Below, piece by piece: positions 3,759 through 28,477 of a stretch of 34,004 nucleotides of DNA. Under the pieces are notes generated by a model. The model saw only the letters and a program-made list of their open reading frames with translations. It did not search any database and had not been told where the DNA came from. Numbering within the stretch: position 1 is the first letter of the stretch; the number at the start of each line of letters is the position of its first letter. Source of the DNA: Acidimicrobiia bacterium (GTDB lineage Bacteria; Actinomycetota; Acidimicrobiia; Acidimicrobiales; AC-14); NCBI GenBank assembly GCA_023265025.1, contig JAHFUP010000058.1, positions 1 to 34,004 of the forward strand. The letters run 5' to 3'. The translations under genes were made by a program, and so were the position numbers.

Positions 3759-3769
3759 CATCTCCACTT

Positions 3770-3831: not shown

Positions 3832-3853
3832 AGAGGGACCGGAAAGGGCCACC

Positions 3854-4245: not shown

Positions 4246-4505
4246 CCGACGACCGCGCGCAGCCAACGAGGAGCGTCATCCTCACCGACGCTCAGGCCGC
4301 CGCCCTCGCCGCCGACGTGGCTGCGGACCTCATCGACGGCTACGGCGACCTGTTCTACGAGTTCCCGACGCTCACCACCGCCTCCGCACATGCAGTGCAG
4401 GCCGCTTTGCACGAGATCGCTCGGCGTCACCGAAAGGCGAGCGAGGCCGAGGAGGGGAATGGGTTCATGCGCCTACTGTGGGGCGAGGAGGAGAATGATG
4501 AGTGA
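4242..4505 (+). CDS. Small helical hypothetical protein
   Basis: An 87-residue, Ala-rich helical protein (TDAQAAALAADVAADLIDGY near residues 16-35), ending in an acidic tail. The ATG at 4242 overlaps the previous stop by 4 bases and has GGGAGGG upstream. No family recognised. The 3' end carries the ribosome site for the next gene and overlaps it by about 8 bases, so coupled translation is likely. Confidence 0.6.
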   Translation: MTDDRAQPTRSVILTDAQAAALAADVAADLIDGYGDLFYEFPTLTTASAHAVQAALHEIARRHRKASEAEEGNGFMRLLWGEEENDE

Positions 4506-12997: not shown

Positions 12998-13012
12998 GCG
13001 GGGTAATAGGGT
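12984..13012 (+). promoter_or_regulatory. Promoter before the lysozyme-like gene
   Basis: TTGCCT (12984-12989), a 17-base spacer, TAGGGT (13007-13012). The same -10 and spacer are seen in the early minus promoter at 3651-3679. Confidence 0.5.
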
Positions 13013-13075
13013 GTTCGCATCCCCCCTGTCCGTGTGACACGCTGACTGGTGTGTCCACGGGGATTGGAGTTCAGG

Positions 13076-13609
13076 ATGTTCCCTGCCCTCGCCCTCACCG
13101 TGGCCCTCACAGCCACACCCCCCACCCCCCCTCCTCCTGTCCCTCCCGCGCTGGCCGCGTGGGTGATGGCGGCGGGGATGGGCGCTGACATGTCGGAGCG
13201 TTGGCTCCGCCAGGAATGCGGGCGGATCTGCCAGCCGGCTCCGCCGGCACCCCCGCCAACCGCCAGCAGCTCGAGCAGCTCGAGCAGCTCGGCTGCGAGG
13301 CGGGTAGGGTCGGGGGTCGAGCAGTGGCGGACACTGGTCGCCAGCCACTTCCCAGCCGAACACGTGGACCTGGCGTTAGCGGTGATGGCCTGCGAGTCGG
13401 GTGGCAACCCGGACGCCCGCAACCCGAACAGTTCAGCATCCGGTCTGTTCCAACACCTCGCCCGGTACTGGGACGCCCGCACCCTCGCCGCAGGAATCCC
13501 CGGTGCCAGCATTTTCGACCCGACCAGCCAGATGGTGGTGACCGCTCACATGACCGGCGGCGGGGTCAACTGGACGGCGTGGCAGGCATCCCACCACTGC
13601 TGGCATTAG
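13076..13609 (+). CDS. Secreted lysozyme-like (SLT) protein
   Basis: A 177-residue protein. It starts with a hydrophobic signal-like segment (residues 1-14), then a Pro-rich stretch, a nine-Ser run (64-72) and a lysozyme-like domain. MACESGGNPDARN places the catalytic Glu at E107, and SSASGLFQHLARYW follows as in the SLT/lysozyme-like superfamily. It probably cuts peptidoglycan glycan strands. Located in the head module, it could be a virion-associated entry enzyme or be exported. The ATG at 13076 is preferred over GTG 13049 because the signal segment starts there. Confidence 0.75.
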   Translation: MFPALALTVALTATPPTPPPPVPPALAAWVMAAGMGADMSERWLRQECGRICQPAPPAPPPTASSSSSSSSSAARRVGSGVEQWRTLVASHFPAEHVDLALAVMACESGGNPDARNPNSSASGLFQHLARYWDARTLAAGIPGASIFDPTSQMVVTAHMTGGGVNWTAWQASHHCWH

Positions 13610-13630
13610 CGGGGTTCGAACCGCCAATGC
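13603..13630. terminator. Bidirectional terminator between convergent genes
   Basis: GCATT-A-GCGG pairs with CCGC-C-AATGC around the loop GGTTCGAA: ten positions with one mismatch. It covers the stops of the rightward lysozyme-like gene (TAG) and the leftward FkbM gene (TAA), which overlap by 3 bases. The loop resembles a tRNA T-loop but no tRNA is present. Confidence 0.6.
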
Positions 13631-14322
13631 TGCTCATGGTCGGTGGCGAGCAGACGCCCACGGTCATACCCGTGGGCGTGCAACAGTGCGAACAGGGCGT
13701 CCGGTGACGTGCCGTAGTCCCGGGCCATCAGGTCAGGGTGGACACTGATCCACACGGTCGGCCGGTCCCGTTCCAACACCCCGACCGTCCCGGCGATCAC
13801 CTCGAGTTCGGCGCCTTCCACGTCCACGGTCACACCCCCCACCAAGTCCAGGTCGAGCTCGTCGACCCGGAACACTCCCGCGGTGTGTGCGCCGTGCAGG
13901 TACTCGTATGACGGTTTGTCGACGACGGGTGCGGTCGCAGCGTCGGGCCATCCCCCGACAGTGACCTGCACCGAACCGGCCGGGTCGGGTCCGGCGAGCC
14001 CGTGGACGGTCATGCCGGGTGCCGCCGCCACGTTCGCGTTCCACACTGTCCGGGCGAGAGGCCACGCCTCCGCGGACCCTTCCACCAGGCACATGCGTGC
14101 CGCTCCCACAGTGTGGGCGTGGGCGACTGACAGCCAGCCCGCTTCCACACCCACATCCACAAGCCATCCGGGTCGCCCTTCCATCACCCTGGCAATACTG
14201 GTCGTGCGTTCCCGTTCCCAGTAATCCCACACATCCCAGCTCGCCAGCGGTTCGGGGAGTATCAGGGTGTAGTCGTAGTCCCTGGTCTGACCCTGCCGCA
14301 GATACCCGACGTTCCGGAACAT
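13606..14322 (-). CDS. FkbM-type methyltransferase
   Basis: A 238-residue SAM methyltransferase of FkbM type. Motif I is WLVDVGVEAGWLSV (about 53-66), and the family hallmark TVDVEGAELEVIAG is at about 165-180, followed by PTVWISVHPD. FkbM enzymes methylate sugar or polyketide hydroxyls, and are often in glycan loci. GGAGGTG precedes the ATG at 14322. It is the only leftward gene within the head module, flanked by a shared terminator on one side and a 200-base divergent gap on the other. This suggests separate acquisition (a moron), an inference from orientation. Confidence 0.8.
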   Translation of the reverse strand: MFRNVGYLRQGQTRDYDYTLILPEPLASWDVWDYWERERTTSIARVMEGRPGWLVDVGVEAGWLSVAHAHTVGAARMCLVEGSAEAWPLARTVWNANVAAAPGMTVHGLAGPDPAGSVQVTVGGWPDAATAPVVDKPSYEYLHGAHTAGVFRVDELDLDLVGGVTVDVEGAELEVIAGTVGVLERDRPTVWISVHPDLMARDYGTSPDALFALLHAHGYDRGRLLATDHEQHWRFEPR

Positions 14323-14522
14323 GTGGCACCTCCGGGGCTGCCTCGGTCACGCTTGCGGACTGTTGGCCCTCCGGGACACCGGCTGACATCCGAGTGGAGG
14401 GCTCCGACATGTCCGACGATACCAACGGGACCGCAGCGTGTGGAGGTGTCCCCAAACGTGACACGGTGCATCCCGGTGACCCGTTAGCATGTGTGATGGA
14501 ACCCCGATCCGGAGAACATCGC
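14323..14522. other. Divergent gap before protease gene
   Basis: A 200-base region between divergent genes. It holds an in-frame ATG at 14409 for the downstream gene and a TAGCAT at 14485-14490 that could serve as a -10, but no matching -35. No other feature is visible. Confidence 0.4.
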
Positions 14523-15836
14523 ATGTGGACACGCACACTCTTGACGTTGACAGCGTCGGTCACTGCCGGGCAGCGGGCATGGCTGGCCCCGTTGAACACT
14601 CCGACCACCGCCGACCGCCGGGTGTTGACCGGTGACCCGTCGTGGCGGGAAACGACACCGCTCATGTTCAGTGACACGGAGGCGGGTCACGGGGACGCCG
14701 TGTTCGTTGGGAACCTGACCGGCCTGGCGGTCACGGACCGTGACGGGGTGGCGTGGGTCACCGCGGATGTGGACTGGCTGGACGGTGACGCCACCGCGGA
14801 ACGGGCGCGAGGTCTGGTCGAGTCGGGACGGCTGCCGGGTGTGTCAGTCGCTGCGCTGGGTGAAACCGTGGACATGTGCTGGGATGAGGCCACGTCGACG
14901 GGCACTGTCATCAACTGGGAGGATCCCCCCGTCGTCGTCGACCAGGAAGGGAACAGGGGGCTGCCATGCGACTGGGAAACCATGGTGACGGCTGTTGTGG
15001 ACCCGGTGATCGTGTCGGCCACGATTGTCACAGTGCCAGCGTTCGACGGGGCGCTCATCGCCGACGCCACCGACACCGGCACCCCCAACCCCACCGACAC
15101 CGGCAGCCCCGGCCGGGGGCCCGTGGATTTGAACAGGCCACCCGACGACTGGTTCACCCGCCCCGACGTGGACGGCCCCGTCCCAGGGATGGTCACCGAC
15201 GACGGCCGGGTGTTCCGATACGTGGCGCTCTGGGACACATGCCATATCGGGTTCGGCGGCCAGTGCGTGACCCCACCCCGTGGAGCCTCCTACAAGGCGT
15301 TCCTCACCGGCCAACTGGTCACCGCGTCGGGGACGGTGGTCCCGGTCGGTCCCCTCGTCGTGGACGACGGGCACGCCCCCGTCGACTGGTCAGTGGACCG
15401 GGTCGGCCGGTACTACGCGAACACGCTTCTCGCCGCCGCGTACGTGACGGTGGGGGAGGACGAGTACGGGGTGTGGGTGGCGGGTGCGCTGTCACCCCGT
15501 GCCACTGTTGACCAGACCGAGGTGTTGCGCCGGCACCCCCTGTCAGGGGATTGGCGTCCCCTCGACGGGGGGTACGGGCTGGTGGCTGCGGTCGCTGTGA
15601 ACTCTCCCGGGTTTGTGGTGCCGCATGTGCTCGCCGCGGCGTCCGGTGACCCGGGCATGCTGGTCACGGTCGGTGACACGCCTGCGCCCGCAGAACCGGT
15701 GTCGGATCTGGTGCTGGTCGCCGCAGCGATCGAAGCTCTCGCCGGCCGGGTGTCGGACACGCTCGCCCGGTTGGACGCGGAAGCGTTGAACATGGCGGCT
15801 GACCGGGTGGCCGAAGCACTAGGAGTCGCGACATGA
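14523..15836 (+). CDS. Capsid maturation (prohead) protease
   Basis: A 437-residue protein matching actinophage capsid maturation proteases. The N-terminal 190 residues have the beta-rich fold with RARGLVESGRLPGVSVAALG near residue 100, and the IVTVPAFDGALIAD signature near 175. The C-terminal half is a large extension with GGQCVTPP and a final helix, possibly a scaffold-like or decoration part. It would trim capsid N-termini during head assembly. Starts at 14409 and 14508 are also in frame; 14523 is chosen because TLLTLTAS is the usual start region and GGAGA precedes it. The catalytic His/Ser are not assigned. Confidence 0.75.
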   Translation: MWTRTLLTLTASVTAGQRAWLAPLNTPTTADRRVLTGDPSWRETTPLMFSDTEAGHGDAVFVGNLTGLAVTDRDGVAWVTADVDWLDGDATAERARGLVESGRLPGVSVAALGETVDMCWDEATSTGTVINWEDPPVVVDQEGNRGLPCDWETMVTAVVDPVIVSATIVTVPAFDGALIADATDTGTPNPTDTGSPGRGPVDLNRPPDDWFTRPDVDGPVPGMVTDDGRVFRYVALWDTCHIGFGGQCVTPPRGASYKAFLTGQLVTASGTVVPVGPLVVDDGHAPVDWSVDRVGRYYANTLLAAAYVTVGEDEYGVWVAGALSPRATVDQTEVLRRHPLSGDWRPLDGGYGLVAAVAVNSPGFVVPHVLAAASGDPGMLVTVGDTPAPAEPVSDLVLVAAAIEALAGRVSDTLARLDAEALNMAADRVAEALGVAT

Positions 15837-16852
15837 GTCTGCTGTTGATGGAGTCCGCGGATCTGCCGTCCGTGGCCGGTGACAAATGGACCACGAACAC
15901 GGCGACGTTCGCGCAGACCGTGGACGGGCGCACCTGTTGGAGGATGGTGGAGGCGAGCATGCCCCTGACCAAGAACCTGTCAGCAGCCCAGGAGTCCGCC
16001 ACGATCACTGTCGGATTGCGCTACCTGGTCACCGGTACGAGCAACGGCACGACCAACAATGGCATCTGCACGTTCTACGGGATCGGTGGTACTGTCCTGC
16101 ATGTCCGTGTCACGAACACTGCGTCGGGTGCCATCGCAGTGTACCGGAACGCGTCCAATCTCCTTGGCACATCCGCGGCGGGTCTGCTGCCAATCAACAC
16201 GTGGGTGTACCTGGAGTTCCAGGTGACCTGTCATGACACGGCGGGTGCGGTCACTGTGAAAGCCGATGGTGTAACAGTGCTCACCCTCACCAATGTTGAC
16301 ACCCGTAACGCTGGCGCGGACGCCCTCATCGACCAGGTCAGGTTTGGTGCCCAGGATGTGGGTAGCCTAAAGTACGCCTACGTCCGGGATGTTGTCGTCA
16401 TGAACGATGCGGGCACCACCCTGAACGGGCCGATCGGCCCCTGCATTGTGGAAGCCCGGCTCGCCACCGCGGCCGGTGACCTGACAGCGTGGACTCCGAA
16501 CACTGGCGCGAACTATGCGGCAGTCGACGACCCGGCGGCCAACGACGGGGACACCACATTTGTGGAAGCGCTCACCCCGGTCCGTGACACGTACACGATG
16601 GCGGACCTTGTAGCGGTCGGCTCGAACATCAAAGCTGTCCAAGCCCATGTCGTCGCCCGGTACAACACGGCGCCACTCAACGTTGCGACCACCCTCCGCC
16701 GGTCGTCCACGAACAGTGACGGCACCGCTTCTGTCCCAACCGGGTCGTACGGGTCGAAGGCTGTGACGATATGGGAGACTGATCCGGTGGCTGCTGGGGC
16801 GTGGACTGTCGCTAATTTCAATGCCACGCAGTTCGGGGTCGTGTCCAGCTGA
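15833..16852 (+). CDS. ConA/LamG-like virion protein
   Basis: A 339-residue beta-rich protein. Residues 1-200 have the rhythm of a concanavalin A-like/laminin-G jelly roll (WVYLEFQVTCHDTAGAVTVK, then VTVLTLTNVDT, then VRFGAQDVGSLKYAYVRDV). Residues 200-339 form a second beta domain (TAWTPNTGANYAAVDDPAAN). Such proteins near capsid genes usually decorate the head or bind glycan. The start overlaps the protease stop as ATGA; the end overlaps the next start as TGATG. No signal peptide. Sugar binding is an inference from fold. Confidence 0.7.
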   Translation: MSLLLMESADLPSVAGDKWTTNTATFAQTVDGRTCWRMVEASMPLTKNLSAAQESATITVGLRYLVTGTSNGTTNNGICTFYGIGGTVLHVRVTNTASGAIAVYRNASNLLGTSAAGLLPINTWVYLEFQVTCHDTAGAVTVKADGVTVLTLTNVDTRNAGADALIDQVRFGAQDVGSLKYAYVRDVVVMNDAGTTLNGPIGPCIVEARLATAAGDLTAWTPNTGANYAAVDDPAANDGDTTFVEALTPVRDTYTMADLVAVGSNIKAVQAHVVARYNTAPLNVATTLRRSSTNSDGTASVPTGSYGSKAVTIWETDPVAAGAWTVANFNATQFGVVSS

Positions 16853-17370
16853 TGGCTGATGTTCGGGCCACCCAGCTCATCGTTGAGGTCCTCGGCGGCG
16901 TCCCCGATGTTCGGGCCACCCAGCTCATCGTTGAGGTCCTCGGCGGCGTCCCCGATGTTCGGGCCACCCAGCTCATCGTTGAGGTCCTCGCCTTGGAGGC
17001 AGCGTACGCGCCACCCGAAACACCAGCCGGGGTGGCGGCGGTGGCGACAGGCGAGACCACGGTCACTGTCACGTGGGGTGACGTTGCGAACGAAACCGGG
17101 TACCGGGTTGAGTCGTCGGTGGACGGGTCGACCGGATGGGTGGACCGGTCGGGGAGTCTGGCCGCTGACACTGTCACGTTCGGGGATACGGGACTGACCG
17201 CTGCCACCACGTACTGGTACCGGGTGATAGCGTTCAACCTGAACGGTGACAGTGCGGCGAGTGCGGTCGTGGACGCCACCACTGACAGCCCACCGCCTCC
17301 TGTGGTCGGTGAGTCGAACCGTATGGGTGGCAGCGGCGCTATCCGACATTCCCCACCCGGCCGCCGGTGA
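16852..17370 (+). CDS. Tandem-repeat plus FnIII virion protein
   Basis: 172 residues. The first 48 residues are three copies of a 16-residue unit, DVRATQLIVEVLGGVP (the third partial). A fibronectin type III domain follows at about 57-145 (PAGVAAVATGETTVTVTW, then TYWYRVIAFNLNGDSA), and then a polar Pro/Gly tail. The VRATQ..VEVL unit resembles short beta repeats found in environmental phage structural proteins. FnIII domains on virions often help bind carbohydrate surfaces. It lies immediately before the capsid promoter. A minor head decoration protein is likely. Confidence 0.7.
   Translation: MADVRATQLIVEVLGGVPDVRATQLIVEVLGGVPDVRATQLIVEVLALEAAYAPPETPAGVAAVATGETTVTVTWGDVANETGYRVESSVDGSTGWVDRSGSLAADTVTFGDTGLTAATTYWYRVIAFNLNGDSAASAVVDATTDSPPPPVVGESNRMGGSGAIRHSPPGRR
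16858..16990 (+). repeat. 48-bp tandem repeat (2.8 copies)
   Basis: Copies at 16858-16905 and 16906-16953 are identical; a third runs identically over 37 bases to 16990. The zero divergence means a recent duplication, in frame and coding for the 16-residue unit. Confidence 0.95.
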
Positions 17371-17515: not shown

Positions 17516-19138
17516 ATGTTCACCCGTGAACAGATCCTCGCTCTGCTCGACAGTGACGTCGCCGCGTCAACCGACCCCGAACTGGGCGTACTCACCGAAG
17601 CGATCTCGGCTGCCCTCTCTGACCGTGGCTCGTACACCCGCGACGAACTGTCCCGACTCGTGGAAGTCGGCCGGGCTGTCAGCACCGAACGTGACACCCG
17701 TGTCGCCCTCACCGCGGAACTCGACGGCCTCGCGGTCGCCCTCACCGACCCCACCCCCGAACCGGTGGTCGAACCGGCCGTCACAACCCCCGACCCGGTG
17801 CCGGTGGCCGCGTCCGCGGGCACTGTCAGCCAGCTCGCCGGGCACCGCAACCAGCCCCTCCCCCCCAACGACGAGCTCCCCCCCGCCGCTGTGATCGTCG
17901 CGGCCGGCGGGTCGCCCGGTGGCGGCCGCACCGACGGCACCCCCATCAGCAACGTGGTAGAGCTCGGATCACGGATGGAGTCGGCGTGGCGTGGCACCTC
18001 GCCGCCCGCGAACGGGGCCGTGTTCAACCGGGCCGCGCAGAAGCAGTGGGACGCCGCCCACCGTTTCACCCAGGATTCGGGCGAGTCGAACTACCGGACG
18101 CTCCGCACCGTGTACGAGCAGGCGCAGGCAGCCGCCCGTGACAGCGTGTACAAGGGGTCGGGTGTCACCCGCACCCTCCAGGCCGCGTCCGGGATCTGTG
18201 GGCCGTCCGAAGCCCGCTACGACTTCCTGTCGCTCACCTCGACGGACGGTCTCATCGACCTGCCCGAAGTCGGGTTGACACGGGGCAGCGTGCAGATCCC
18301 CCAGTCCACCACATACCAGGATCTGCGCCTCGAGGCGGGTGTCGGCCAGTCGTACACGTCCGCGAACGGTGTCGCCGGCACCACCAAGTCAACGTTCACG
18401 GTGGCGTGCCCGGGTGTCACCACGTTCAACCTGACGGGGTGGGCGACGATCCTCCGGTTCTCCAACTTTCAGGGACAGTTCTTCCCCGAATATGTGGCGG
18501 ACACCACCCAGACTGCGCTCGCCGCGCACGCACAGAAAGTGAACAACGGGCTGCTCGACGCGATCATCGCGGACGCCAACACGCTCACCTACTCGACGTC
18601 GGATAAGGGTGGTGGAGCGTTCACCCAGTTCATCCGCCAGGTCACCTTCCACGTGTGGTTGTACCGGGACAAGTACCGGCTGGCGAGGGACACGATCCTC
18701 GACGTGGTGTTCCCGTACCGGGCGTTGGGTGCGATCATCGCCGATGTGGCGGCCCGTGACTCGACGACCACGGCCGGGCTCATGGTCGCATCAGCGATCA
18801 GTCAGCTCGAAACGGAGATCGGGGCTCGCATCCAGTTCGTGTACGGGCTGATGGAAATGCTCGACGCGCCCGGCGACTTCGGCGACGAAGTGTACGACGC
18901 GCTCGTGTACCCGGCTGGCGCGGTCATCCGGATCACCGGTGAAACCCTCGACCTGGGCGTGGTGCGCGACTCGACCCGTAACGCTGCGAACGAGTTCGAA
19001 ACGTTCACGGAAACGTTCGACGCGGTCGCCACGACAGGCTACGAGATCATGCGTCTCACTGACATGGTCCTGTGCCCGAACGGTGAAACCGGCAGCCGGG
19101 TGACGATCACCTGCACGTCGGGTGCGTCCGGGTCCTAA
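17516..19138 (+). CDS. Major capsid protein (HK97 fold)
   Basis: 540 residues. Residues 1-85 are a helical, acidic domain, then a Pro/Ala linker (about 80-150). The HK97-type capsid domain follows, with the N-arm and E-loop region at about 215-290 (VGLTRGSVQIPQSTTYQDLR) and P- and A-domains to the end (DTILDVVFPYRALGAIIADV, then MRLTDMVLCPNG). The extra N-terminal 150 residues probably act as a built-in scaffold (delta-domain) that the neighbouring protease removes. A GGAGGTG ribosome site and own promoter fit high expression. A strong hairpin follows the gene. Confidence 0.85.
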   Translation: MFTREQILALLDSDVAASTDPELGVLTEAISAALSDRGSYTRDELSRLVEVGRAVSTERDTRVALTAELDGLAVALTDPTPEPVVEPAVTTPDPVPVAASAGTVSQLAGHRNQPLPPNDELPPAAVIVAAGGSPGGGRTDGTPISNVVELGSRMESAWRGTSPPANGAVFNRAAQKQWDAAHRFTQDSGESNYRTLRTVYEQAQAAARDSVYKGSGVTRTLQAASGICGPSEARYDFLSLTSTDGLIDLPEVGLTRGSVQIPQSTTYQDLRLEAGVGQSYTSANGVAGTTKSTFTVACPGVTTFNLTGWATILRFSNFQGQFFPEYVADTTQTALAAHAQKVNNGLLDAIIADANTLTYSTSDKGGGAFTQFIRQVTFHVWLYRDKYRLARDTILDVVFPYRALGAIIADVAARDSTTTAGLMVASAISQLETEIGARIQFVYGLMEMLDAPGDFGDEVYDALVYPAGAVIRITGETLDLGVVRDSTRNAANEFETFTETFDAVATTGYEIMRLTDMVLCPNGETGSRVTITCTSGASGS

Positions 19139-19248: not shown

Positions 19249-20820
19249 ATGTCCCCGCCACCGCTACCAGTGGTCTGGCACACATACCATCCCGACCATG
19301 TGGGCCGTTGCTGCTGGGATCAGACCATCGTCGAACAGCTTCTCGAACCGTTCAACCCGGTCACTGTCGAACAGATCCCCACTACGGGTGGGGCCGTGAT
19401 TGTCGTCCCCGGCCGTGACAACGCGGGGACAGAACCCCGGTTCACCGCCGACATAGCGCACCTCGACTGGGTGGTGCTCATCGTCACCGGTGACGAAGAA
19501 GGCCTGTTCCACCCGGCCGAGGTCACCCATCCGCGTATCCGCCGGTGGGTGCAAACCCCCCACACGCTCGGTGACGGGGACATGCTGCTGCCACTCGGAC
19601 CGACCCCCCACACCAGTGACCCGTCGATAGTCGAAGCCCCAGCCAAAAACGTGGACGTTTTCTTCGCCGGTCAGGTCACCCATCAGCGCCGCCACGACAT
19701 GGTCGCAGCGTTCACCGGGTTCCCCGGCGCCGAACTGGTCGCCACCGCAGGGTTCAGTCAGGGCCTGGACCGTGGCGAGTACATGGCTCGGATGCGGGCA
19801 GCGAAAGTGGTGCCATGCCCGTCGGGTCCCTGCCATGTCGAATCGTTCCGCATATACGAGGCGCTCGAGTCGGGGGCTGTTCCCCTCGTGGACAGTCGCA
19901 CACCGGACGGGGCCCCGGGTGTAGGTCCCGCCTACGACTGGGTGGTGGGGGAATGGGAACACGCCCCCACCATGGCCCGCCTGGTCCTCGACACGTGGCC
20001 GGTGTCAGCGAACCGGACCCAAGCCCACTATCAGGCAGCGAAAATGCGGTTACGGGCGGGCATGGCCGCCCAGTTGAACACGTTGCGTGGCAGCGACGAT
20101 GCGACACCACCGGTCACAGTGCTCATTCCCACGTCACCGATCCTCGCTCACCCCGACCCTGCCATGACTGTGGAAGCGGTCACGTCGGTCCGTACCCAGT
20201 TGCCGGGGGTGCCGATCGTGCTCATGTTCGACGGGGTCCGTCCCGAACAGGAGAACCGGCGGGAAGCGTACGAGGAGTATCAGCGGCGTGTGCTGTGGCA
20301 CACCAACCGGATTGGTGGTGTGACCCCCCTCCGGTTCGACGAGTACACCCATCAGGCGGGCATGACCCGGCGAGCTCTCGAAGAGGTCACGTCACCTCTC
20401 GTCCTGTATGTGGAACATGACACGTTCCTGGACGGTGTGATCCCGTGGGATGCGCTGGGTGGCTGCATCACGGACGGTGCCTTCGACGTGATCCGGTTGC
20501 ATCACGAATCCGAGATCCTAGAACCGCACCGTTATCTGATGCTCGACGACACCCCCACCAGTGCTGGGGTGCCGGTGCTCCGCACCCGGCAATGGTCGCA
20601 ACGTCCACACCTCGCGTCGGCCGCGTACTACCGGCGGCTTCTCACCTTGTGGTTCCGGCCCGGTCAACGCACCATGATCGAAGATGTGATGCATGGGGTG
20701 TGCCAGTCGGAACCGTGGACTGAGAACCGGGTGGGGATTTACGCTCCACCGGGCGACATGAAACGGTCATGGCATTTGGACGGGCGGGCCAGCGAACCGA
20801 AATACGGGATGGACCGATGA
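19249..20820 (+). CDS. Bifunctional glycosyltransferase (exostosin-like + GT-A)
   Basis: 523 residues with two transferase-like domains. Residues 1-280 resemble an exostosin-like GT-B domain: FFAGQVTHQRR (about 138-148), then CHVESFRIYEALESGAVPLV (about 195-214), with the conserved Glu pair for sugar nucleotide binding. Residues 287-480 look like a GT-A (GT2-like) domain: VTVLIPTSPI, VPIVLMFDG, and YVEHDTF (387-393) at the DxD position. It would add sugars to a virion protein or a host wall polymer. The next gene overlaps it as ATGA. Domain calls come from motif reading. Confidence 0.75.
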   Translation: MSPPPLPVVWHTYHPDHVGRCCWDQTIVEQLLEPFNPVTVEQIPTTGGAVIVVPGRDNAGTEPRFTADIAHLDWVVLIVTGDEEGLFHPAEVTHPRIRRWVQTPHTLGDGDMLLPLGPTPHTSDPSIVEAPAKNVDVFFAGQVTHQRRHDMVAAFTGFPGAELVATAGFSQGLDRGEYMARMRAAKVVPCPSGPCHVESFRIYEALESGAVPLVDSRTPDGAPGVGPAYDWVVGEWEHAPTMARLVLDTWPVSANRTQAHYQAAKMRLRAGMAAQLNTLRGSDDATPPVTVLIPTSPILAHPDPAMTVEAVTSVRTQLPGVPIVLMFDGVRPEQENRREAYEEYQRRVLWHTNRIGGVTPLRFDEYTHQAGMTRRALEEVTSPLVLYVEHDTFLDGVIPWDALGGCITDGAFDVIRLHHESEILEPHRYLMLDDTPTSAGVPVLRTRQWSQRPHLASAAYYRRLLTLWFRPGQRTMIEDVMHGVCQSEPWTENRVGIYAPPGDMKRSWHLDGRASEPKYGMDR

Positions 20821-21758
20821 CGAAGGTCGTGTACGTCGGGAACTTCCGACCCGAATATTCCACCGAAAACGACGTGGCGGACGCGTTGGCACGGTTGGGA
20901 ACCCAAGTGGTCACAGTTCAGGAGGACGACTGGGCGCAGGGACGGTGCGGCATGCCCGACCCTGACAGTGTGGACATGGTGTTGTGGACCCGCACATGGC
21001 CGGTGCCCAGTGCCCTCGCTGAGGTGTCGCTGCAACCGTTCAAAGCGGCGGGGGTGCCAGTGGTCGGCTACCATTTGGACCGGTGGTGGGGTTTGAGCCG
21101 GTCCCGGGACCTGTACTCGGATCCGTACTGGGCGTGGATGGACACGTTCTTCACCGCTGACCCCGGCACCGCTCATTGGGCGCGGCTGGGTGTGAACGCG
21201 GTGTGGACACCCCCCGCAGTGTCCGAACGTCACCTCGAACCTGTCACACTGCCACGCCACGCACCCTACCCGAACGCGGTCGTAGCGTTCGTTGGGAACA
21301 CCGACGAAACGTCGTACCATCCTGAGCATCAGCACCGGTTCGCGATGCTCGACGTGCTCCGCCGCCGATACGGGTCGTCGTTCGTTGAAATCCCTGGGCG
21401 TGGCCGACCCGCTATCCGTGGCCCCGCCCTCACCCACATTTACGGGACGGTGCCCGTCATCGTCGGTGATTCGTGCCTGGCGGGACTGGACGCGTACTGG
21501 TCGGATCGGGTACCCGAAACGGTGGGCCGGGCCGGGCTGCTGCTCCACCCGTGGACGGACTGGGCGGGCCAGTACGAACCGGGCCAACATTTGCTGTGTT
21601 GGCGTCTCGGGGACTGGGATGGGCTTTGCGGTGTCATCGACTCGGCGTTAGCGGACAGTGCTGGCAGGGACCGGGTCCGGTTCGAGGGTGCCGCGCACGT
21701 CCGGGCGGGTCACACGTACACGGTGCGGATGCGACGGGTGTTGGAGATGATGCTGTGA
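20817..21758 (+). CDS. Glycosyltransferase (CgeB/GT4-like)
   Basis: 313 residues. A Rossmann-type N-terminus (KVVYVGNFRPEYSTENDVAD) and an acceptor/donor domain follow the layout of CgeB-type or GT4 glycosyltransferases: FVGNTDE near residue 160, PVIVGDSCLAG near 215, and VPETVGRAGLLLHPW near 235-250, where the donor nucleotide would bind. The start at 20817 overlaps the previous stop. The final residues overlap the GTG of the next gene. The sugar is unknown. Confidence 0.75.
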   Translation: MTKVVYVGNFRPEYSTENDVADALARLGTQVVTVQEDDWAQGRCGMPDPDSVDMVLWTRTWPVPSALAEVSLQPFKAAGVPVVGYHLDRWWGLSRSRDLYSDPYWAWMDTFFTADPGTAHWARLGVNAVWTPPAVSERHLEPVTLPRHAPYPNAVVAFVGNTDETSYHPEHQHRFAMLDVLRRRYGSSFVEIPGRGRPAIRGPALTHIYGTVPVIVGDSCLAGLDAYWSDRVPETVGRAGLLLHPWTDWAGQYEPGQHLLCWRLGDWDGLCGVIDSALADSAGRDRVRFEGAAHVRAGHTYTVRMRRVLEMML

Positions 21759-22738
21759 GGGTCGGGTTGATCGCCCGCTGCGACAACCGGGGTCTCGGCA
21801 TCCAAACCTGGGAGGTGTGGCGGCATCTGACACCGGCGGTGACCGTGGTAGTGGACCCTGGCGGGACAGAAGCCCGCCAGTACCCGGACAGGTATCCCGA
21901 CGGCATTGTCTGCACTCCCGACCGGATATGTGACCGGCGGATCGTGGACATGTTAGCGACGTGCGACGTCGTGTACACGGCGGAAACCTGGTATGACCGG
22001 TCGCTGCCCGAACGGCTCGCCGCTGCGGGCACTGCCACAGTCCGGCACATCAACCCTGAACTCGACGACGGGGCATGGTCGTCGAGTGTGTGGGCTCCCA
22101 CAGGCTGGCTCACCGACCGGCTTCCTGCTGGGACCCGTGTCGTGCCCATGCCCGCACCCGTTGACCGGTTCCCGACGGTGACCCCACCCACGTCACCGCC
22201 CAGGGTGGTGCATCCGGCGGGGAAACCGGCGTTAGCTGACCGGCAAGGTTCGGAGATTGTGGCGGCTTGCACCCGGCCTCTGCATCGGGCGGGTATCAGC
22301 GTGGACCTTGTCGGGTTCGGTTCCGCCCGTGGTGTCCCGTTCCGGCCTGTGGACGACTGGTGGACCCGTGACCCGGGTGCGGTATGTTCGGTGATACCCC
22401 GACGGTACGGCGGGTTGTGCATGCCCGTTCTCGAAGCGTTGGCCGCGGGTGTGCCCGTAATGATGACGGACTGCCCGCCGAACGCTGACATGTGGCCGAT
22501 CATCCCGTTGGCAGCGTCGCGGGGTCATGATGTGCGGGCGAAAGCGGGTCTGGTGCCGAACTGGGTGGTGGATCCGGGCACGGTCACGTCCACGGTGATG
22601 GTCCTGGCCGCTGACCCGGACCGGCGGGCCCATGAAGCGGACCGGGCCAGGGGTTGGGCGCTGGAACATTCGTGGGAGGTGCTCGCACCCGTGTGGGTCA
22701 GGGAACTGGCCGACGCTGCCGAGACGGGCAGTCGGTGA
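21755..22738 (+). CDS. GT4-family glycosyltransferase
   Basis: 327 residues. The N-terminus GLIARCDNRGLGIQTWEVWR is a Gly-rich donor-side loop. The C-terminal domain has RRYGGLCMPVLEALAAGVPV (about 210-229), the GT4 donor-binding element in which the Glu contacts the nucleotide sugar. The start is a GTG in a GTGA overlap with the previous gene, with GGAGATG upstream. Third transferase in a row in one coupled set, so the enzymes probably build one short glycan. Confidence 0.8.
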   Translation: MRVGLIARCDNRGLGIQTWEVWRHLTPAVTVVVDPGGTEARQYPDRYPDGIVCTPDRICDRRIVDMLATCDVVYTAETWYDRSLPERLAAAGTATVRHINPELDDGAWSSSVWAPTGWLTDRLPAGTRVVPMPAPVDRFPTVTPPTSPPRVVHPAGKPALADRQGSEIVAACTRPLHRAGISVDLVGFGSARGVPFRPVDDWWTRDPGAVCSVIPRRYGGLCMPVLEALAAGVPVMMTDCPPNADMWPIIPLAASRGHDVRAKAGLVPNWVVDPGTVTSTVMVLAADPDRRAHEADRARGWALEHSWEVLAPVWVRELADAAETGSR

Positions 22739-23088
22739 AAGCGAGCGTCGAGCAGATCGGGGCGCTCACCCGTCTGCTCGGGGAGCTCGAAGCGGTCCGG
22801 CGTGGCGTTGACCTGTGGGCGTTGGACCGGGCTGAGGCCGCGGAACTGATCCGGGCCTGCCATTTGGAGCTTGGTGACCTCCGGGTCGCAGACCTGTCGG
22901 GTGGTGGACGGGGACAGTCGGGAAGCCGCCAGTCTGCTCGCCGCCGGATGGTGGGAGCGGCAATCGTCGCTGACCCCGACGATATGAGGCATGGCACCGA
23001 ATACGGTTACAACCACGGGTGCCGGTGCGACCGGTGCCGGGCCGCGAAATCGGAGGCGGGTAAAGCACGACGAACCCGCCACACATAG
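22735..23088 (+). CDS. HGTxxGY-GCRCDRC zinc-motif protein
   Basis: 117 residues. Helical N-terminal 60 residues, a Ser/Gly/Arg-rich linker, then HGTEYGYNHGCRCDRCRAAK (about 85-104). This small Cys/His element is widespread in actinobacterial genomes and phages and is probably zinc-binding and DNA-related. The GTG start overlaps the upstream stop. Role unknown; its presence supports an actinobacterial host. Confidence 0.65.
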   Translation: MKASVEQIGALTRLLGELEAVRRGVDLWALDRAEAAELIRACHLELGDLRVADLSGGGRGQSGSRQSARRRMVGAAIVADPDDMRHGTEYGYNHGCRCDRCRAAKSEAGKARRTRHT

Positions 23089-23107
23089 CACCCCGACCGC
23101 CCACGTG

Positions 23108-23116
23108 TGCTATCTT
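23108..23116 (+). promoter_or_regulatory. Extended -10 before the LexA-like gene
   Basis: TGCTATCTT lies 29 bases before the GTG, ahead of a GAGGAG ribosome site. No good -35 is visible, as expected for extended -10 promoters. Confidence 0.45.
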
Positions 23117-23145
23117 GGGTGGTGTTCCAGTGAGGAGACGGCAGA

Positions 23146-23361
23146 GTGCTGAACGCCCGCGACGAAGCAACACTCACGTTCATCCGCAACTTCTACGCGG
23201 ACAATGACTACTACCCGACCCTCCGTCAGGTGGCAGAGGGCATCGGGTTGAGTCGAGAATCCACACAGAGTGTGCGACTGATCCTCACCCGTCTCGAACG
23301 TGAAGGGTTGATCCGTCGGATTGGCGGGGTGCCGCAGGGTATCCGACTGGTACACCCGTGA
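23146..23361 (+). CDS. LexA-type winged-helix protein
   Basis: A 71-residue stand-alone DNA-binding domain like the LexA N-terminus: RDEATLTFIRNFYADNDYYP, T-LRQVAEGIGLSRESTQSVRL as the recognition helix-turn-helix, then LEREGLIRRIGG as the wing. The LexA protease half is missing. GTG start with GAGGAG upstream and its own extended -10. Placed inside the late region between glycan genes, it may regulate this block locally. Confidence 0.75.
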   Translation: MLNARDEATLTFIRNFYADNDYYPTLRQVAEGIGLSRESTQSVRLILTRLEREGLIRRIGGVPQGIRLVHP

Positions 23362-23377
23362 CCGCGGGACGGTGACC

Positions 23378-24268
23378 GTGACCCGTGTCGGTGTCGTCGC
23401 CGACCTCGAGCATTACCGCCGTCACCTCACCCCGATCGTCGACGGGCTCGCCGTGGCGGGTGTCGAAGTGTTCGACGGTCCCGGCGACATCACCCTCGTC
23501 GCGGGCAGAGCCGACGCCCGGAGAGTGAACGGGCCGGTCATCCTCGTGGAGCATGGTGCCGGGCAACGGTACATGACCGAGCACGGGCAGCTCATAGACG
23601 CGTACGGTGAACCGGCACCCGAACACAACGTGGTCATGTACCTGTCCCCACGGTCCGAAACGGTGGGGACCATGGCCGAAGTGTTACCCAACGCCCGGAT
23701 CGTGGTTGCCGGTGCGCCAGTGCTCGGCACGTTGGGTGCGGTGGGTGCGGGCGACCGGGTGGTGTTCGCGACGCATTGGGCGTCGGGTCTCGCATCGCGG
23801 ATCCCCGAGGCGGGCACGTCGTGGCCGTGGAGTGTCCGCCATGTGCAAGCTCTCACCGCCCGGTATGGCACACGGGTCACTGTTCACGCCCACCCCCGGC
23901 ATGTGGCGAGGGTACGCAACGATGTGGCACGCCGCCGAATCCACGTTGACGTGGAAGCGGACTGGCGGTCCGTGCTGACCCAAGCGCAGATCCTGGTGGT
24001 GGATAATTCGTCGATTATCTGGGAGGCGCAGGCGGTGGGTGTGCCCGTCGTGCTCATCGACCATCCCCTGTGGCGGTCAGACCCGGGCCACGACTTGCGG
24101 TGGGGTCCGGAGGGTCGGCGTTTGCCGCTGGTCCGGCCCGGTGACAATCTGACAGAGATAGTTGACAGAGAGCTGGTGTCACCGACCGCCCCCGTGAACG
24201 TGTACGGGCCGGGCGACCCGGTCGAGGCGCTCGGACTGGCTGTCGCAGCGATCGTCGACCTGTTGTAA
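23378..24268 (+). CDS. CDP-glycerol glycerophosphotransferase-like protein
   Basis: 296 residues resembling the C-terminal catalytic part of CDP-glycerol/ribitol phosphotransferases (TagF/TarF-like) and related GT-B enzymes. VEHGAGQRY near residue 57, HAHPRHV near 170, and LVVDNSSIIWEAQAVGVPVV near 205-224, then LIDHPLWR, match the CDP-binding motifs (HG, HP, D-SS). The family builds teichoic-acid-type polymers. There is no membrane helix. The GTG at 23378 is preferred, with 23372 as alternative. Fourth transfer enzyme of the block. Confidence 0.75.
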   Translation: MTRVGVVADLEHYRRHLTPIVDGLAVAGVEVFDGPGDITLVAGRADARRVNGPVILVEHGAGQRYMTEHGQLIDAYGEPAPEHNVVMYLSPRSETVGTMAEVLPNARIVVAGAPVLGTLGAVGAGDRVVFATHWASGLASRIPEAGTSWPWSVRHVQALTARYGTRVTVHAHPRHVARVRNDVARRRIHVDVEADWRSVLTQAQILVVDNSSIIWEAQAVGVPVVLIDHPLWRSDPGHDLRWGPEGRRLPLVRPGDNLTEIVDRELVSPTAPVNVYGPGDPVEALGLAVAAIVDLL

Positions 24269-24305: not shown

Positions 24306-25226
24306 ATGACCGTCGCACCGATTTTCGCGACCTCACCGCCCGCCCGGTCGGGATGGCGGCCAAGTTTAGTGGGTGCTGCCCGAGAGTTCGGCACGTATGA
24401 GCCTCCCGACTCTGATGTTGCACGTCGTCTCGGTGGGATCAGCTATCAGCCACCGTCGGACAACACGTGGGTGCGTACCTTCGACCCGTGTGACAGTCCG
24501 GAACTGGTACACAGTCAGGGTGACCCGGCGGCGGTGTGGCTGCCGTGGGGTATCACAGCCCGTGACGACTGTCCCAGCATCGGCAACGACCCGGTAGCCG
24601 CCGCGGGTCGGGTCACTGCCACGCTCCGCAACCAGACCTCACATCTGATCGAGGAGGTGTTGTGGACTGGGCTCCTCGACGTGGGCACTGACATTGAGAC
24701 CATGGCAGCGGCGAACAGTCCCGCCGGGTCGAACCGTCGACTCGCGTCGGATTCGGCGACCCTCATCGACGGGACCGCCGCCCACGGTTTCGTCGACGCG
24801 TTCGGCCACATCCTCGACTGGGTGCCCACAGTGCTGGGCGGTGAAAACGCGTGGATTCATTTGGAGCCACGTCTCCTCCCGTACCTGGCGTTCTACAACC
24901 TGGCGACGCGAACGTCGGCGAGGTCGATCAGCACTGTCCTCGGGGACTATCCGATCGTGGCTGGCACCGGGTACACGGGGTCGGGTCCCGCCAGCCAGGT
25001 CACCGGCACCGGGCAGTCGTGGATCTACGTGACGACCCCCGTCCGTGTGATCGAGGGGCCCATCTTCGAACCGGGCGACCCGGAAGGGTTCTTGGATCGG
25101 AGTCTCAACAGGTTCCGTCCCGTCGCATCACGTATGGTCCTGGCCGACTGGGACCTCGAGGTGCATGGGGCGATAAGGGTTGCCACCCCGGACCCCGGTC
25201 CGACGTGGGCGGCGACAGGAAGCTAA
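24306..25226 (+). CDS. Virion structural protein, unknown
   Basis: 306 residues, mixed alpha/beta with no signal or membrane segment. Conserved-looking blocks are GGISYQPPSDNTWVRTFDPC (about 43-62), GRVTATLRNQTSHLIEEVLW (about 100-119), NAWIHLEPRLLPYLAFYNLA (about 180-199) and VAGTGYTGSGP. It resembles a family seen beside tail genes in actinophage-like contigs that I cannot name. It opens the tail module. Own extended -10; probably leaderless. Confidence 0.65.
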   Translation: MTVAPIFATSPPARSGWRPSLVGAAREFGTYEPPDSDVARRLGGISYQPPSDNTWVRTFDPCDSPELVHSQGDPAAVWLPWGITARDDCPSIGNDPVAAAGRVTATLRNQTSHLIEEVLWTGLLDVGTDIETMAAANSPAGSNRRLASDSATLIDGTAAHGFVDAFGHILDWVPTVLGGENAWIHLEPRLLPYLAFYNLATRTSARSISTVLGDYPIVAGTGYTGSGPASQVTGTGQSWIYVTTPVRVIEGPIFEPGDPEGFLDRSLNRFRPVASRMVLADWDLEVHGAIRVATPDPGPTWAATGS

Positions 25227-25242
25227 CGGAGGAGACGCGACG

Positions 25243-25938
25243 ATGGCGACAAGCCAGCCGAGTTTGGCGGCGGGACGTGGTCTCGTCGCTGCCCGGATCA
25301 CCCTGCTCAACGCGGACGGTTCCCGGAACTGTTCCACCGCCGACACGAGCGCGTACACGATGTGCCCGCAGACAATCACCGTTTCCGAACAGACCGAAGC
25401 GGGAGAGTCTCAGACCATCCGCTGCGGTTCGGGCAGCGTGTACGCCACGTACACGACTGAGGACGCGGTGAACAGCCTCGAACTGACCATGACCCTCGTG
25501 CCAGTCGACATCGAGTTGATCGCCTTGGCGACCGGAGCGACCCCGCTACGGTCCGGCGGGTCGATCATCGGATGGTCGGGCGGGCAGAACACGAACACGA
25601 TCCCCACCGAAGTGCACGCCTGGCAGGAATCGTATGTGGGTGGAGCCCAGTCCGCCGCACCTAACAACTTCTGGCATCACTGCTGGCCGCATGTGAAATG
25701 GCGGTTGTCGCCCGCGAACCTGGAGGAAGGGTTCAACACGATTTCCCTCATCGGGAAAGTGTCGGGGAACCTGAGCCTCGGTAACGGGTCGTTCTTGGAC
25801 ATTCCCGTGGAAGCGTTCGAATCGTCCACCCACTACCACGCCAGGTGGCGGGACAATGACGTGCCGGTCGTCACCGACGCGGCGTACAACAATGGTTTGG
25901 GTGGCGGTTACATACCCACGCCGGCCTGCACGAGCTGA
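25243..25938 (+). CDS. Major tail (tube) protein candidate
   Basis: A 231-residue beta-rich protein. YATYTTEDAVNSLELTMTLV at about 68-87, ELIALATGATP next to it, and SPANLEEGFNTISLIGKVSG near 165-184 are typical of siphovirus tail-tube proteins, including an LxLxLxP strand pattern. GGAGGAG precedes the ATG at 25243. It lies before the connector genes, which is unusual, since tube genes normally follow them. If not the tube, it may be a decoration or tail-completion protein. Confidence 0.65.
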   Translation: MATSQPSLAAGRGLVAARITLLNADGSRNCSTADTSAYTMCPQTITVSEQTEAGESQTIRCGSGSVYATYTTEDAVNSLELTMTLVPVDIELIALATGATPLRSGGSIIGWSGGQNTNTIPTEVHAWQESYVGGAQSAAPNNFWHHCWPHVKWRLSPANLEEGFNTISLIGKVSGNLSLGNGSFLDIPVEAFESSTHYHARWRDNDVPVVTDAAYNNGLGGGYIPTPACTS

Positions 25939-25940
25939 CA

Positions 25941-26630
25941 GTGGACATGCCATGTGACGTGTGGGTCACGTCGGCGGACGTCGCGGCGTGTGGTGTCGAC
26001 CCGGCCCTGTACGACGCTGCCCTGGTCACTGATGTGCTCGCCGCCGCGTCCGCGTGGACGTTCCGCATGTCGGGGCAACGGTGGACGGGGGTGTGCACGT
26101 CAACGGAACGGCCATGCGGGTGTTCGTGTCGCTGCGACCAGGTGTGCCGCTGCGACAGTCTGTGCCAGTGTCAGACCGCGGACACGGTCGCTCTCACTTA
26201 CGGGCCGGTGGTGGGCACCCCGACAGTCACCATTGACGGCGCCCCGTTCAGCATGTTCGCGGTGATCGCCCCGAACATGCTGGCCCGCACCGACGGGCAC
26301 CGCTGGCCGTCCTGCCAGGTGTATGAGCAGGGCCCGTCGGAGGGGTGGATAGTCACATATGATCATGGTGTCGTACCCCCAGTGTTGGCGGTGATGGCCG
26401 CTGCGGAGGTGGCGTCGGAGATGCTGCGGGCGTGTGCCGGTGACGTGTGCGCGTTGCCGGCGGGTACGGTGGCGGTCACCCGGCGGGGAGTGTCCATCGA
26501 CTTGGACTCGGACAAGGCGGCGGCAGCGTTACCGCGGGTGGCGATGCTTCTCGGGTCGTATCCGCCTCGTCGGAGCCCACCCGTGGTGCGGGACGGTTCG
26601 CGGGGTCTCATCACGTCGGGTCCGGTGTGA
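25941..26630 (+). CDS. Head-tail connector with Cys-rich insert
   Basis: 229 residues, gp6/adaptor-like: helices at 10-50 (VDPALYDAALVTDVLAAASAW) and 140-170, and a C-terminal DKAAAALPRVAMLLGSY region that would contact the portal. A Cys-rich insert at about residues 58-78 packs nine Cys with the spacing CGCSCRCDQVCRCDSLCQCQ. GTG 25941 or ATG 25947 can be the start; GTG has a GAG at suitable distance. Part of the connector set with the next two genes. Confidence 0.7.
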   Translation: MDMPCDVWVTSADVAACGVDPALYDAALVTDVLAAASAWTFRMSGQRWTGVCTSTERPCGCSCRCDQVCRCDSLCQCQTADTVALTYGPVVGTPTVTIDGAPFSMFAVIAPNMLARTDGHRWPSCQVYEQGPSEGWIVTYDHGVVPPVLAVMAAAEVASEMLRACAGDVCALPAGTVAVTRRGVSIDLDSDKAAAALPRVAMLLGSYPPRRSPPVVRDGSRGLITSGPV

Positions 26631-27017
26631 ATGGCGTCCCTCGACCCGCTCCGCGAACGTATTAGGGGTCGGGCCCGTGTCGCGGTGGGCCGGGTTGCGG
26701 GTCCGTTGGAAACGGAGCTGCGTCGCACGTCGCCACGCCGGACCGGACGCATGGCCAGTCAGACCCGGGTGACACCGGCGGGCCCGTACCGGCTGCGGGT
26801 GACAGTGAACACCCCGTACGCGTCGTATGTGCGGTCGGGCACGGCACCGCATGTGATCCGCCCGGTCCGGGGTAAAGCCCTCACGTTCATATGGCATGGC
26901 CGCCGAGTGTTCTTCTCGAGGGTGCGGCATCCGGGGACGCTCGCCCGGCCGTGGCTGGCGTTGGCGTTCGACCGGTTCGGGCGGATGGTCGCGGACGAGT
27001 TGCGGAGGCTGCCATGA
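26631..27017 (+). CDS. HK97 gp10-like connector/tail protein
   Basis: A 128-residue HK97 gp10-type protein. RRTSPRRTGRMASQ near 32-45, then TVNTPYASYVRSGTAPHVI near 58-76, then RHPGTLARPWL is the family pattern (Pxx-T/xG...PYAxxxExGT). It helps join head and tail. Starts directly after the preceding stop and overlaps the next gene by 4 bases. Confidence 0.8.
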   Translation: MASLDPLRERIRGRARVAVGRVAGPLETELRRTSPRRTGRMASQTRVTPAGPYRLRVTVNTPYASYVRSGTAPHVIRPVRGKALTFIWHGRRVFFSRVRHPGTLARPWLALAFDRFGRMVADELRRLP

Positions 27018-27511
27018 CCGTGGCCGCCACAACGTTGCTGACAGCGGCCACCGGGCTCGCTGATGTCCTGTCGGACGCTGCGGTCGCGTACGGGTGGACA
27101 CCGTCACAGGTGTGTGTGACACCGGTCGAACCGGGGTTCGGCTGCGACGAAATCCATGTGTGGTTCGGGGGGATCCGCCCGGATACTGTGCGTGGAGCTC
27201 CGGACTGTGAAGTGGCGTCGATTGTGGAACTGTCGTGGGCGGTGTCGCATTGCATTGGCGCTGACCGGGTCGAGTCGTGTGCCTGGTGGGGTGAAGCGGG
27301 TCGGACTGATGAGGCGCTGGCACGGTTGTGGGTGGTGTGGGGTGGCCTGGTGGTGGCGCAGACGTCAGGGGTGTTGTGCACGGCGTTGGGTGCCCGGTCG
27401 TGCCGGGACGTGTCGTTGGGGCCTGTCGGCAGGTTCGAGTCGGGCGACTTGGCCGTGTATTCGGGCACAGTGTCCGTCCGGTTGGACGTCACCACGGTTG
27501 GGGGTTCCTAA
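27014..27511 (+). CDS. Putative tail terminator/completion protein
   Basis: A 165-residue protein with no motif I can name. Placement after the gp10-like gene and before the tail chaperones is where the tail terminator (gpU-like) is normally encoded. Mixed alpha/beta with several Cys. ATG at 27014 in ATGA overlap with the gp10-like gene. The role rests on gene order only. Confidence 0.55.
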   Translation: MTVAATTLLTAATGLADVLSDAAVAYGWTPSQVCVTPVEPGFGCDEIHVWFGGIRPDTVRGAPDCEVASIVELSWAVSHCIGADRVESCAWWGEAGRTDEALARLWVVWGGLVVAQTSGVLCTALGARSCRDVSLGPVGRFESGDLAVYSGTVSVRLDVTTVGGS

Positions 27512-28208: not shown

Positions 28209-28477
28209 CTCCTGGAGCCACGTCAACTGACCGCTGGCAGCAACTGACCGGCCCGAAAATCCTTCTCGGTGGGGGCCTGCGGATTCGAGCGTCGATTTAC
28301 CGGGCGTTGCCGATGCACGCCCCCACTGTCCTGGACGGGTTGACGTTGTGGCAGGTGGGGGTGTTGCTGGGCCATCACGTCGCTGGGCCAAGCGAAGCCG
28401 ACGAGGCGGAGGCAGCCGATATTATGGAGGCGCGGGCCCGCCGGGTCTTGGAAGTGGAGGAGCGGCGTCGTGGCTGA
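27798..28477 (+). CDS. Tail chaperone frameshift product (gpG-GT type)
   Basis: Predicted 226-residue fusion made by -1 slippage near the end of the upstream frame. Candidates are C CCT TTC (28172-28178), which keeps more of the plausible upstream sequence, and G GGG GGG (28103-28109). The -1 frame continues open to 28477, with a helical, charged end (AADIMEARARRVLEVEERRRG) and no ribosome site of its own. It ends 8 bases into the tape measure gene. Confidence 0.65.

Follow-up and report, generated by a model that had tools for sequence, protein, structure and literature searches.

The 34,004-base stretch of DNA analysed here (the window) is one whole contig (C18) of an Acidimicrobiia genome assembly of 5.45 Mb in 185 contigs, and its genes look like those of a siphophage late region. 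A block of enzyme genes that follows the major capsid gene (19249-24268) very probably forms a virion-glycosylation cassette, whose products would build a methyl-capped O-glycan on the C-terminal serine of virion proteins. The direct support comes from the conservation of the gene set, its head-gene neighbourhood, the enzyme folds, the lack of membrane segments in the window proteins and the coincidence of a terminal serine with the enzymes; from these we infer the substrate, the order of the steps, the sugars, the timing of expression and the benefit. The genes concerned are listed below (ORF, open reading frame).

12371-12997, plus strand: Methyltransf_25-type methyltransferase (Methyltransf_25, E 2.3e-10), with homologues in 29 other loci
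13606-14322, minus strand: FkbM methyltransferase (PF05050, E 2e-5), a cassette member, displaced and inverted here
17516-19138, plus strand: major capsid protein (PHROG 777, E 2.7e-57), C-terminus ...CTSGASGS, proposed glycan acceptor
19249-20820, plus strand: ORF1, two-domain glycosyltransferase with a GT-B half (about residues 1-280, GT47-like) fused to a GT-A half (about residues 285-523)
20817-21758, plus strand: ORF2, glycosyltransferase (PHROG 28745, E 4.9e-32; Glyco_trans_1_2-like)
21755-22738, plus strand: ORF3, GT-B glycosyltransferase with a GTG start (Glycos_transf_1-like; PHROG 2170, E 5.7e-6)
22735-23088, plus strand: ORF4, small protein with a CxxC motif, weakly HNH-like (PHROG 23251, E 3.5e-7 over 31 residues)
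23146-23361, plus strand: 71-residue winged-helix protein resembling the LexA DNA-binding domain (PF01726, E 2.9e-9)
about 23372-24268, plus strand: ORF5, GT-B enzyme of the TagF/TarL and UDP-GlcNAc 2-epimerase fold group
24306-25226, plus strand: PHROG 779 protein, probably the capsid pentamer protein, C-terminus ...WAATGS, proposed acceptor
25180-25938, plus strand: probable major tail protein (PHROG 792, E 0.0012, and gene position), C-terminus ...TPACTS, proposed acceptor
25941-26630, plus strand: head-tail adaptor (PHROG 783, E 1e-24), ending ...SGPV without a terminal serine

The capsid, PHROG 779 and tail proteins of the window all end in serine; the pentamer role of the PHROG 779 protein was assigned by gene position from annotated mycobacteriophages, for example Rhinoforte. 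The initial annotation had placed the block between capsid and tail genes. It does follow the capsid gene, but the next gene downstream is this PHROG 779 head gene.

The enzyme set was found repeatedly outside the window. A viral-contig scan with an alignment of five ORF1 proteins as the query gave at least 552 confirmed stretches with an ORF1 relative among 600 listed, and the best 80 of these at least 552 were kept, all of them distinct loci. In a pattern-limited scan of 84,980 genomes ORF1 was detected at six loci, five of them with labelled phage head genes nearby and one (L087) with none, and four ORF1 queries returned zero relatives from 50,697 GenBank phage records. The one named isolate among the cassette carriers is Nocardia sp. 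CDC159 (L085). Within the order to which the window genome belongs, eight of 298 genomes had any ORF1 match, and the only full-length one was on the window contig. We then compared 88 sequences, namely the window and 87 loci, all chosen for ORF1 and near-copies included. ORF3 was present in 85 of them, ORF2 in 74 (counted with a model that included one row, from L003, in the wrong frame), the FkbM methyltransferase in 64, the Methyltransf_25 family in 30 and ORF5 in 16. The gene order ORF2-FkbM-ORF1-ORF3, with or without ORF5, was seen in 54 of the 88, and the window's own order once. Because the same set recurs across these sequences, the enzymes are more than a chance collection. Two methyltransferases near the block had been noted initially, and both were matched to families; judged by sequence, both are members of cassette families that lie apart from the block in the window. 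The FkbM protein scored 25.2 bits against the PF05050 cut-off of 22.7, and five of five aligned members matched this family at E<=0.01. The cassette of one locus (L005) also contains a radical SAM protein (3728-4486), flanked by the FkbM methyltransferase on one side and the GT-A half on the other.

At least one family labelled as terminase, portal, capsid, adaptor or tail was found in the fetched flank of 64 of the 88 sequences, and none was labelled in the other 24. The cassette adjoins head genes of four packaging types, which are not wholly unrelated, as the window terminase clusters with the MUF38-type terminase. In a tree built from 69 non-redundant ORF1 proteins, the packaging type changes at least eight times, where the minimum possible is three and the mean after shuffling is 27.8. 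This pattern indicates that the cassette is mostly inherited together with the head type, with several moves between head modules.

The terminal serine was first spotted by eye in a set of compared capsid proteins, which are 20-27% identical to the window capsid and all end in serine; that set is no independent test. Independent tests were an unbiased scan of last residues, the cassette regions fetched later and a set of controls. In the scan of protein families with at least four distinct members, exactly four families always ended in serine, and these were two capsid families (10/10 and 4/4) and two major tail families (11/11 and 4/4). Background genes ended in serine in 132 of 1128 cases (11.7%) and in GS or AS in 31 of 1128; serine endings made up 0 to 23% for cassette enzymes, portals, terminases and adaptors and 4/8 for PHROG 779. 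In regions fetched after the idea had been noted, where proteins were identified by homology only, all five new capsid and all five new tail proteins ended in serine. In total, 22 of 24 capsid proteins and 23 of 23 tail proteins of cassette phages ended in serine, usually as Gly/Ala-Ser. These totals cover the capsid and tail proteins that could be identified, from only some of the 88 sequences; where the last 25 residues were identical, the duplicate row was removed (L039 from both sets), and the near-copies of L018 (L017 and L071) were not entered. When the T2_1216 head type is left aside, the capsid count is 22/22 over three families (PHROG 777, 10 and 267).

Since a search of viral contigs with the capsid protein of the window yielded no confirmed relative, capsid controls were taken from GenBank phages: 16 of 847 relatives of the window capsid and 5 of 355 relatives of the capsid of mycobacteriophage Che8, which was chosen because it has been described as glycosylated. 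Controls were selected for host spread before their tails were seen; the sixteen consisted of a first ten and, once these had been read, a further six. In most cases the control genes called "pentamer" were chosen because they follow the capsid gene. Control capsids ending in serine were those of GMA2 and Sixama among the sixteen and phiGD23-1 among the five. The family of Che8 gp110 (phrog_854), searched for in 22 records, was present in exactly Che8, GMA2, Sixama and phiGD23-1, and in all four phages both the capsid and the tail protein end in GS. For controls with neither ORF1 nor phrog_854, the capsid ended in serine in 0 of 18 and the tail protein in 1 of 13. Of 17 records searched for the family of Che8 gp109 (phrog_1721), Che8 and GMA2 contained it. 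The broader idea that any GT2 gene predicts the serine tag was rejected, as Tyrumbra carries a GT2-family gene and has no tag.

The cassette phages and Che8 are also connected by genes. Homologues of gp110 with 39-54% identity to the Che8 protein are present in 9 of the 88 cassette sequences, and a gp109-like protein (25-28% identity to Che8 gp109) was found in four cassette loci; a fifth locus, L078, matches the GMA2 member of this family. The near-copies L017, L018 and L071 also have a gp109-related stretch, within the chain that bears ORF3. The termini themselves are similar: the Che8 capsid ends in KTGS and its tail protein in SDGS, and those of the window end in SGS and CTS.

We propose that soluble phage enzymes, expressed late, would assemble an O-linked chain of sugars at the serine that closes the Gly/Ala-Ser tail. 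The major capsid and major tail-tube proteins would serve as acceptors, in many cases joined by the pentamer protein. The first sugar would be added by one transferase, the best candidate being the GT-A half of ORF1, or the gp110 homologue where there is one; the GT47-like half of ORF1, ORF2 and ORF3 would extend the chain, and the FkbM and Methyltransf_25 enzymes would methylate it. In the minority of phages with ORF5, this enzyme may contribute either a polyol-phosphate or another sugar, and once complete the glycan would coat the particle surface. Late expression, which the initial annotation had also assumed, is suggested by gene position only. The initial proposal of virion glycosylation is strengthened by the recurrence of the cassette next to head genes, by window enzymes that show no membrane segment, and by the methyltransferases, the terminal serines of capsid and tail proteins and the nine gp110 homologues. 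We also lean towards the broader view that the Gly/Ala-Ser tail of phage capsid, pentamer and tail-tube proteins is a portable glycosylation signal, read by a horizontally exchanged cassette with the fused GT47-like/GT-A enzyme at its centre, which has moved between head modules and decorates many uncultured phages with methyl-capped glycans.

Several observations weigh against virion glycosylation at a terminal serine. In the T2_1216 head type both identified capsids (L061 and L046) end without serine, so that the tag rule does not hold for this type, which must have a different acceptor. The MUF38-type capsid is not among the identified capsid proteins. The PHROG 779 or post-capsid protein is tagged in just 7 of 11 cassette phages, and ten smaller families with two or three members also mostly end in serine, namely one capsid family, one tail family and eight without assigned identity. 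Among the controls, the Phlyer tail protein ends in serine (...SLS) without phrog_854, and the pentamer or post-capsid protein is tagged in 3 of 16 (GMA2, Sixama and Judebell, the last one without phrog_854). Tyrumbra, as mentioned above, has a GT2 gene and no tag. The Fisher value of about 1e-8 for capsids overstates the significance, because the rows are related, clearly so for GMA2 and Sixama. A GT-A fold match is common and tells nothing about the acceptor, and ORF5 could, from its modelled fold, be a sugar-nucleotide enzyme and not a transferase. Furthermore, a model search detected no gp110 homologue among the ORFs of the window, which is a contig fragment, so that the initiating enzyme of the window is inferred; a gp110 search of the window's genome also gave no match, and the controls of that search were silent too.

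The T2_1216 phages bring in a different explanation, in which the substrate of the enzymes is a different virion protein, for example a tail fibre or a collagen-like protein, and the serine tags serve another process. Besides the two untagged capsids, a collagen-like protein rich in Gly-X-Thr is encoded near the portal gene in this head type, with a longest G-X-Y run of 210 residues (L046). Collagen-like proteins are known sugar acceptors, and by its sequence this protein is a possible alternative glycan acceptor in cassette phages of the T2_1216 type. The explanation nevertheless seems improbable as a general one, given that all 22 of 22 cassette phages whose capsid belongs to one of the three remaining families bear the tag, compared with 0/18 phages without ORF1 or phrog_854, and that Che8, described as C-terminally glycosylated, has it as well. 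The collagen-like proteins have Gly-Asp-Thr repeats and are encoded at 18389-20251 in L046 and 18185-21262 in L061.

The initial annotation had named three glycosyltransferases after the capsid gene. This holds for ORF1, ORF2 and ORF3. An AlphaFold model of ORF1 built with 48 sequences had a mean predicted local distance difference test score (pLDDT) of 94.1 and a predicted template modelling score (pTM) of 0.93. In fold comparison the GT-A half was closest to B4GALNT1 (Z 17.3), followed by polypeptide GalNAc-transferases (Z up to 15.8), with many further GT-A enzymes scoring just below the latter. The GT-B half resembled AO75L, a GT47 enzyme of the capsid-glycan type from a chlorovirus (Z 14.4 over 228 residues, root-mean-square deviation 4.1), and the GT47-like part matched AO75L entries by profile at E 9e-5. 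Because the window protein stayed below the curated PF03016 cut-off (15.3 vs 33.4 bits), we call its N-terminal half just GT47-like; RXYLT1_C was likewise below its cut-off (23.1 vs 27), and ORF1 of the window had no PHROG match. In the family alignment of 48 sequences, Exostosin_GT47 was found in 30 and RXYLT1_C in 38 at E<=0.01. The two halves are separate ORFs in L005, L066, L072, L080-L084 and others, and therefore ORF1, as modelled, reads as two enzymes in one chain.

ORF2 and ORF3 were assigned through their PHROG matches, and the Glycos_transf_1-like match of ORF3 (E 1e-4) is under the curated cut-off. The genes were initially described as tightly overlapping. ORF1 and ORF2 share 4 bp (ATGA at 20817-20820), as do ORF2 and ORF3 (GTGA at 21755-21758), and ORF4 likewise overlaps ORF3 by 4 bp, but ORF5 is separated from ORF3 by ORF4 and the 71-residue ORF. 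ORF4 had no relative in the clustering of loci and is therefore probably no member of the cassette. The 71-residue protein consists of little else than a LexA-type DNA-binding domain and is encoded within the late block directly before ORF5; it may regulate the block.

The initial annotation had also named a CDP-glycerol-transferase-like enzyme, and this label fits the relatives of ORF5 better than the window protein. ORF5 of the window is under the cut-off for the CDP-glycerol domain (PF04464, 12.8 vs 22.1 bits), but 11 of 13 aligned members of the family had this domain at E<=0.1 (best 2.4e-9), and the top match of the family profile was TarL (E 3.4e-5). The modelled fold fits UDP-GlcNAc 2-epimerases (Z 18.7) at least as well as TarL (Z 17.3) or TagF (Z 16.8). 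Because of the PF04464 score and the equally close epimerase fold, we use only the name TagF/TarL-like. Structure and family searches supported ORF1 (GT-B and GT-A), ORF2 and ORF3 as glycosyltransferases and left ORF5 ambiguous between TarL/TagF and epimerase. The suggestion of a teichoic-acid-like decoration draws on this one ambiguous enzyme, present in 16 of the 88 sequences. In L004 the ORF5 homologue (12474-14243, 589 residues) has an EHGAGQ-like motif that is apparently split by an intein-like insertion, which starts with Cys and ends with HN, has no Pfam match and was assigned by reading alone.

The likeness of ORF5 to TarL/TagF, together with that of the GT-A half of ORF1 to the wall-glycan enzymes TarS, TarP and RmlT, raises the question of whether the cassette has the host surface as its target and alters wall teichoic acid, arabinogalactan or capsule in infected or lysogenic cells, for instance to block superinfection. 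We consider this very unlikely, as none of the eight window proteins of the cassette region has a membrane segment (highest 19-residue Kyte-Doolittle mean 1.56), the cassette lies next to head genes and its presence correlates with the C-termini of capsid and tail proteins; it was rejected on the lack of membrane segments. The same eight proteins offer no membrane feature of a gtrABC-like serotype-conversion system, which has a membrane flippase and a lipid-carrier transferase. As for the wall teichoic acid polymerases themselves, TagF and TarL share the GT-B fold and a profile match with the ORF5 family, and differ in that the window protein is far under the Pfam cut-off and that ORF5 occurs in so few of the sequences.

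It is extremely improbable that the transferases hypermodify phage DNA bases, even though phage glycosyltransferases acting on phage DNA are known (PMC12619734). The thymidylate-synthase family PF00303 was found in 1 of 42 records other than the window, many of which are fragments and in which ThyX and other routes lay outside the search, and the single match was in a Nocardia genome on a different contig from the cassette. The position among head genes and the correlation with the serine tag do not fit DNA hypermodification either. This candidate was rejected, the 42 records having no PF00303 match on the same contig as a cassette.

Glycosylation of virion proteins at a terminal serine agrees well with what has been described for mycobacteriophages. 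Freeman et al. 2023 are said to have found the mycobacteriophage virion glycans O-linked. Phage-encoded glycosyltransferases, the GS ends of the Che8 capsid and tail proteins, the nine loci with gp110 homologues and the four with a gp109-like protein are shared features. According to published work, the capsid and tail tube carry glycans at their C-termini (PMC12619734), Che8, Corndog and Myrna were glycosylated, with Che8 gp110 being one of two essential transferases and needed for capsid glycosylation (PMC12363180), and the glycan coat altered antibody responses (PMC11256854). The cassette differs in having its own methyltransferases, in lying among the head genes and not at the right end, and in that no gp110 was detected in the window; the Che8 50-59 kb and Myrna 60-108 kb stretches had no match to the ORF1, ORF3, ORF5 and FkbM models.

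By analogy, the closest counterpart outside phages is the capsid glycan of chloroviruses. For PBCV-1 (A075L, A064R, A061L), PMC9614988 describes an enzyme annotated as exostosin, alongside transferases with several domains and two sugar methyltransferase activities. Both systems thus have mostly soluble virus-encoded transferases including a GT47 type, multidomain proteins and sugar O-methyltransferases. The differences are that the chlorovirus is a virus of eukaryotic algae and its glycan is N-linked, and the GT47 sequence likeness noted above is weak. Among phages, the Streptomyces phages Dryad, Wentworth, Yara and their kin were the only GenBank phage records with an ORF2 homologue (9/50,697). 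In Dryad (L091 12046-14284, genes 34-36) this homologue is followed by a hypothetical gene and then by an annotated methyltransferase, and the three genes are possibly a reduced cassette; the Dryad stretch examined had no match to the ORF1, ORF3, ORF5 and FkbM models.

As far as sequence comparison goes, the cassette is real, conserved and little annotated, with a proposed C-terminal serine acceptor, and is probably a variant of known phage virion glycosylation. A few mycobacteriophages are known to have such glycosylation, which is said to shield particles from antibodies (PMC11256854, PMC12363180). Our literature searches found no paper joining C-terminal serine with phage, glycosylation and major-tail terms, and we recognised none on this cassette. 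If the reading is right, the last residue of capsid and tail proteins predicts which phages glycosylate their particles. The serine tag separated enzyme-bearing phages from the examined relatives without the enzymes and would point to the acceptor residue, which would allow a test of the function of the coat in environments without an immune system.

The contig has no host flank over its 34,004 bases and may be a prophage or a co-binned phage. A nucleotide search with the block region gave no match among phage records. The remaining labelled genes of the late region are as follows.

7969-9691: terminase subunits, within the phage late region
8366-9691, plus strand: terminase large subunit (PHROG 979, E 9.2e-93), head context
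10305-12410, plus strand: portal protein (PHROG 776, E 1.5e-43), head context
within 14019-15836: protease-type head protein
16852-17370: fibronectin type III (FnIII) protein (PF00041, E 1.9e-6)
28470-31178: tape measure protein
31178-31969: weakly Dit-like protein

An FnIII virion protein upstream of the capsid gene had been reported initially and was borne out by the PF00041 match. The accompanying concanavalin A-like label for the product of 15833-16852 was not: this protein had no Pfam match, and PHROG 6368, of unknown function, was its only match. It ends in serine (...VVSS), as do two further proteins of the structural region, those of 26891-27511 (...VGGS) and 31178-31969 (...DQWS), and by their termini these three could be additional acceptors. 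Between the two methyltransferase genes, 13049-13606 encodes a small protein with a weak SLT/transglycosylase-like domain. The FnIII protein carries at its N-terminus a near-perfect triple repeat with a unit of 16 residues (DVRATQLIVEVLGGVP).

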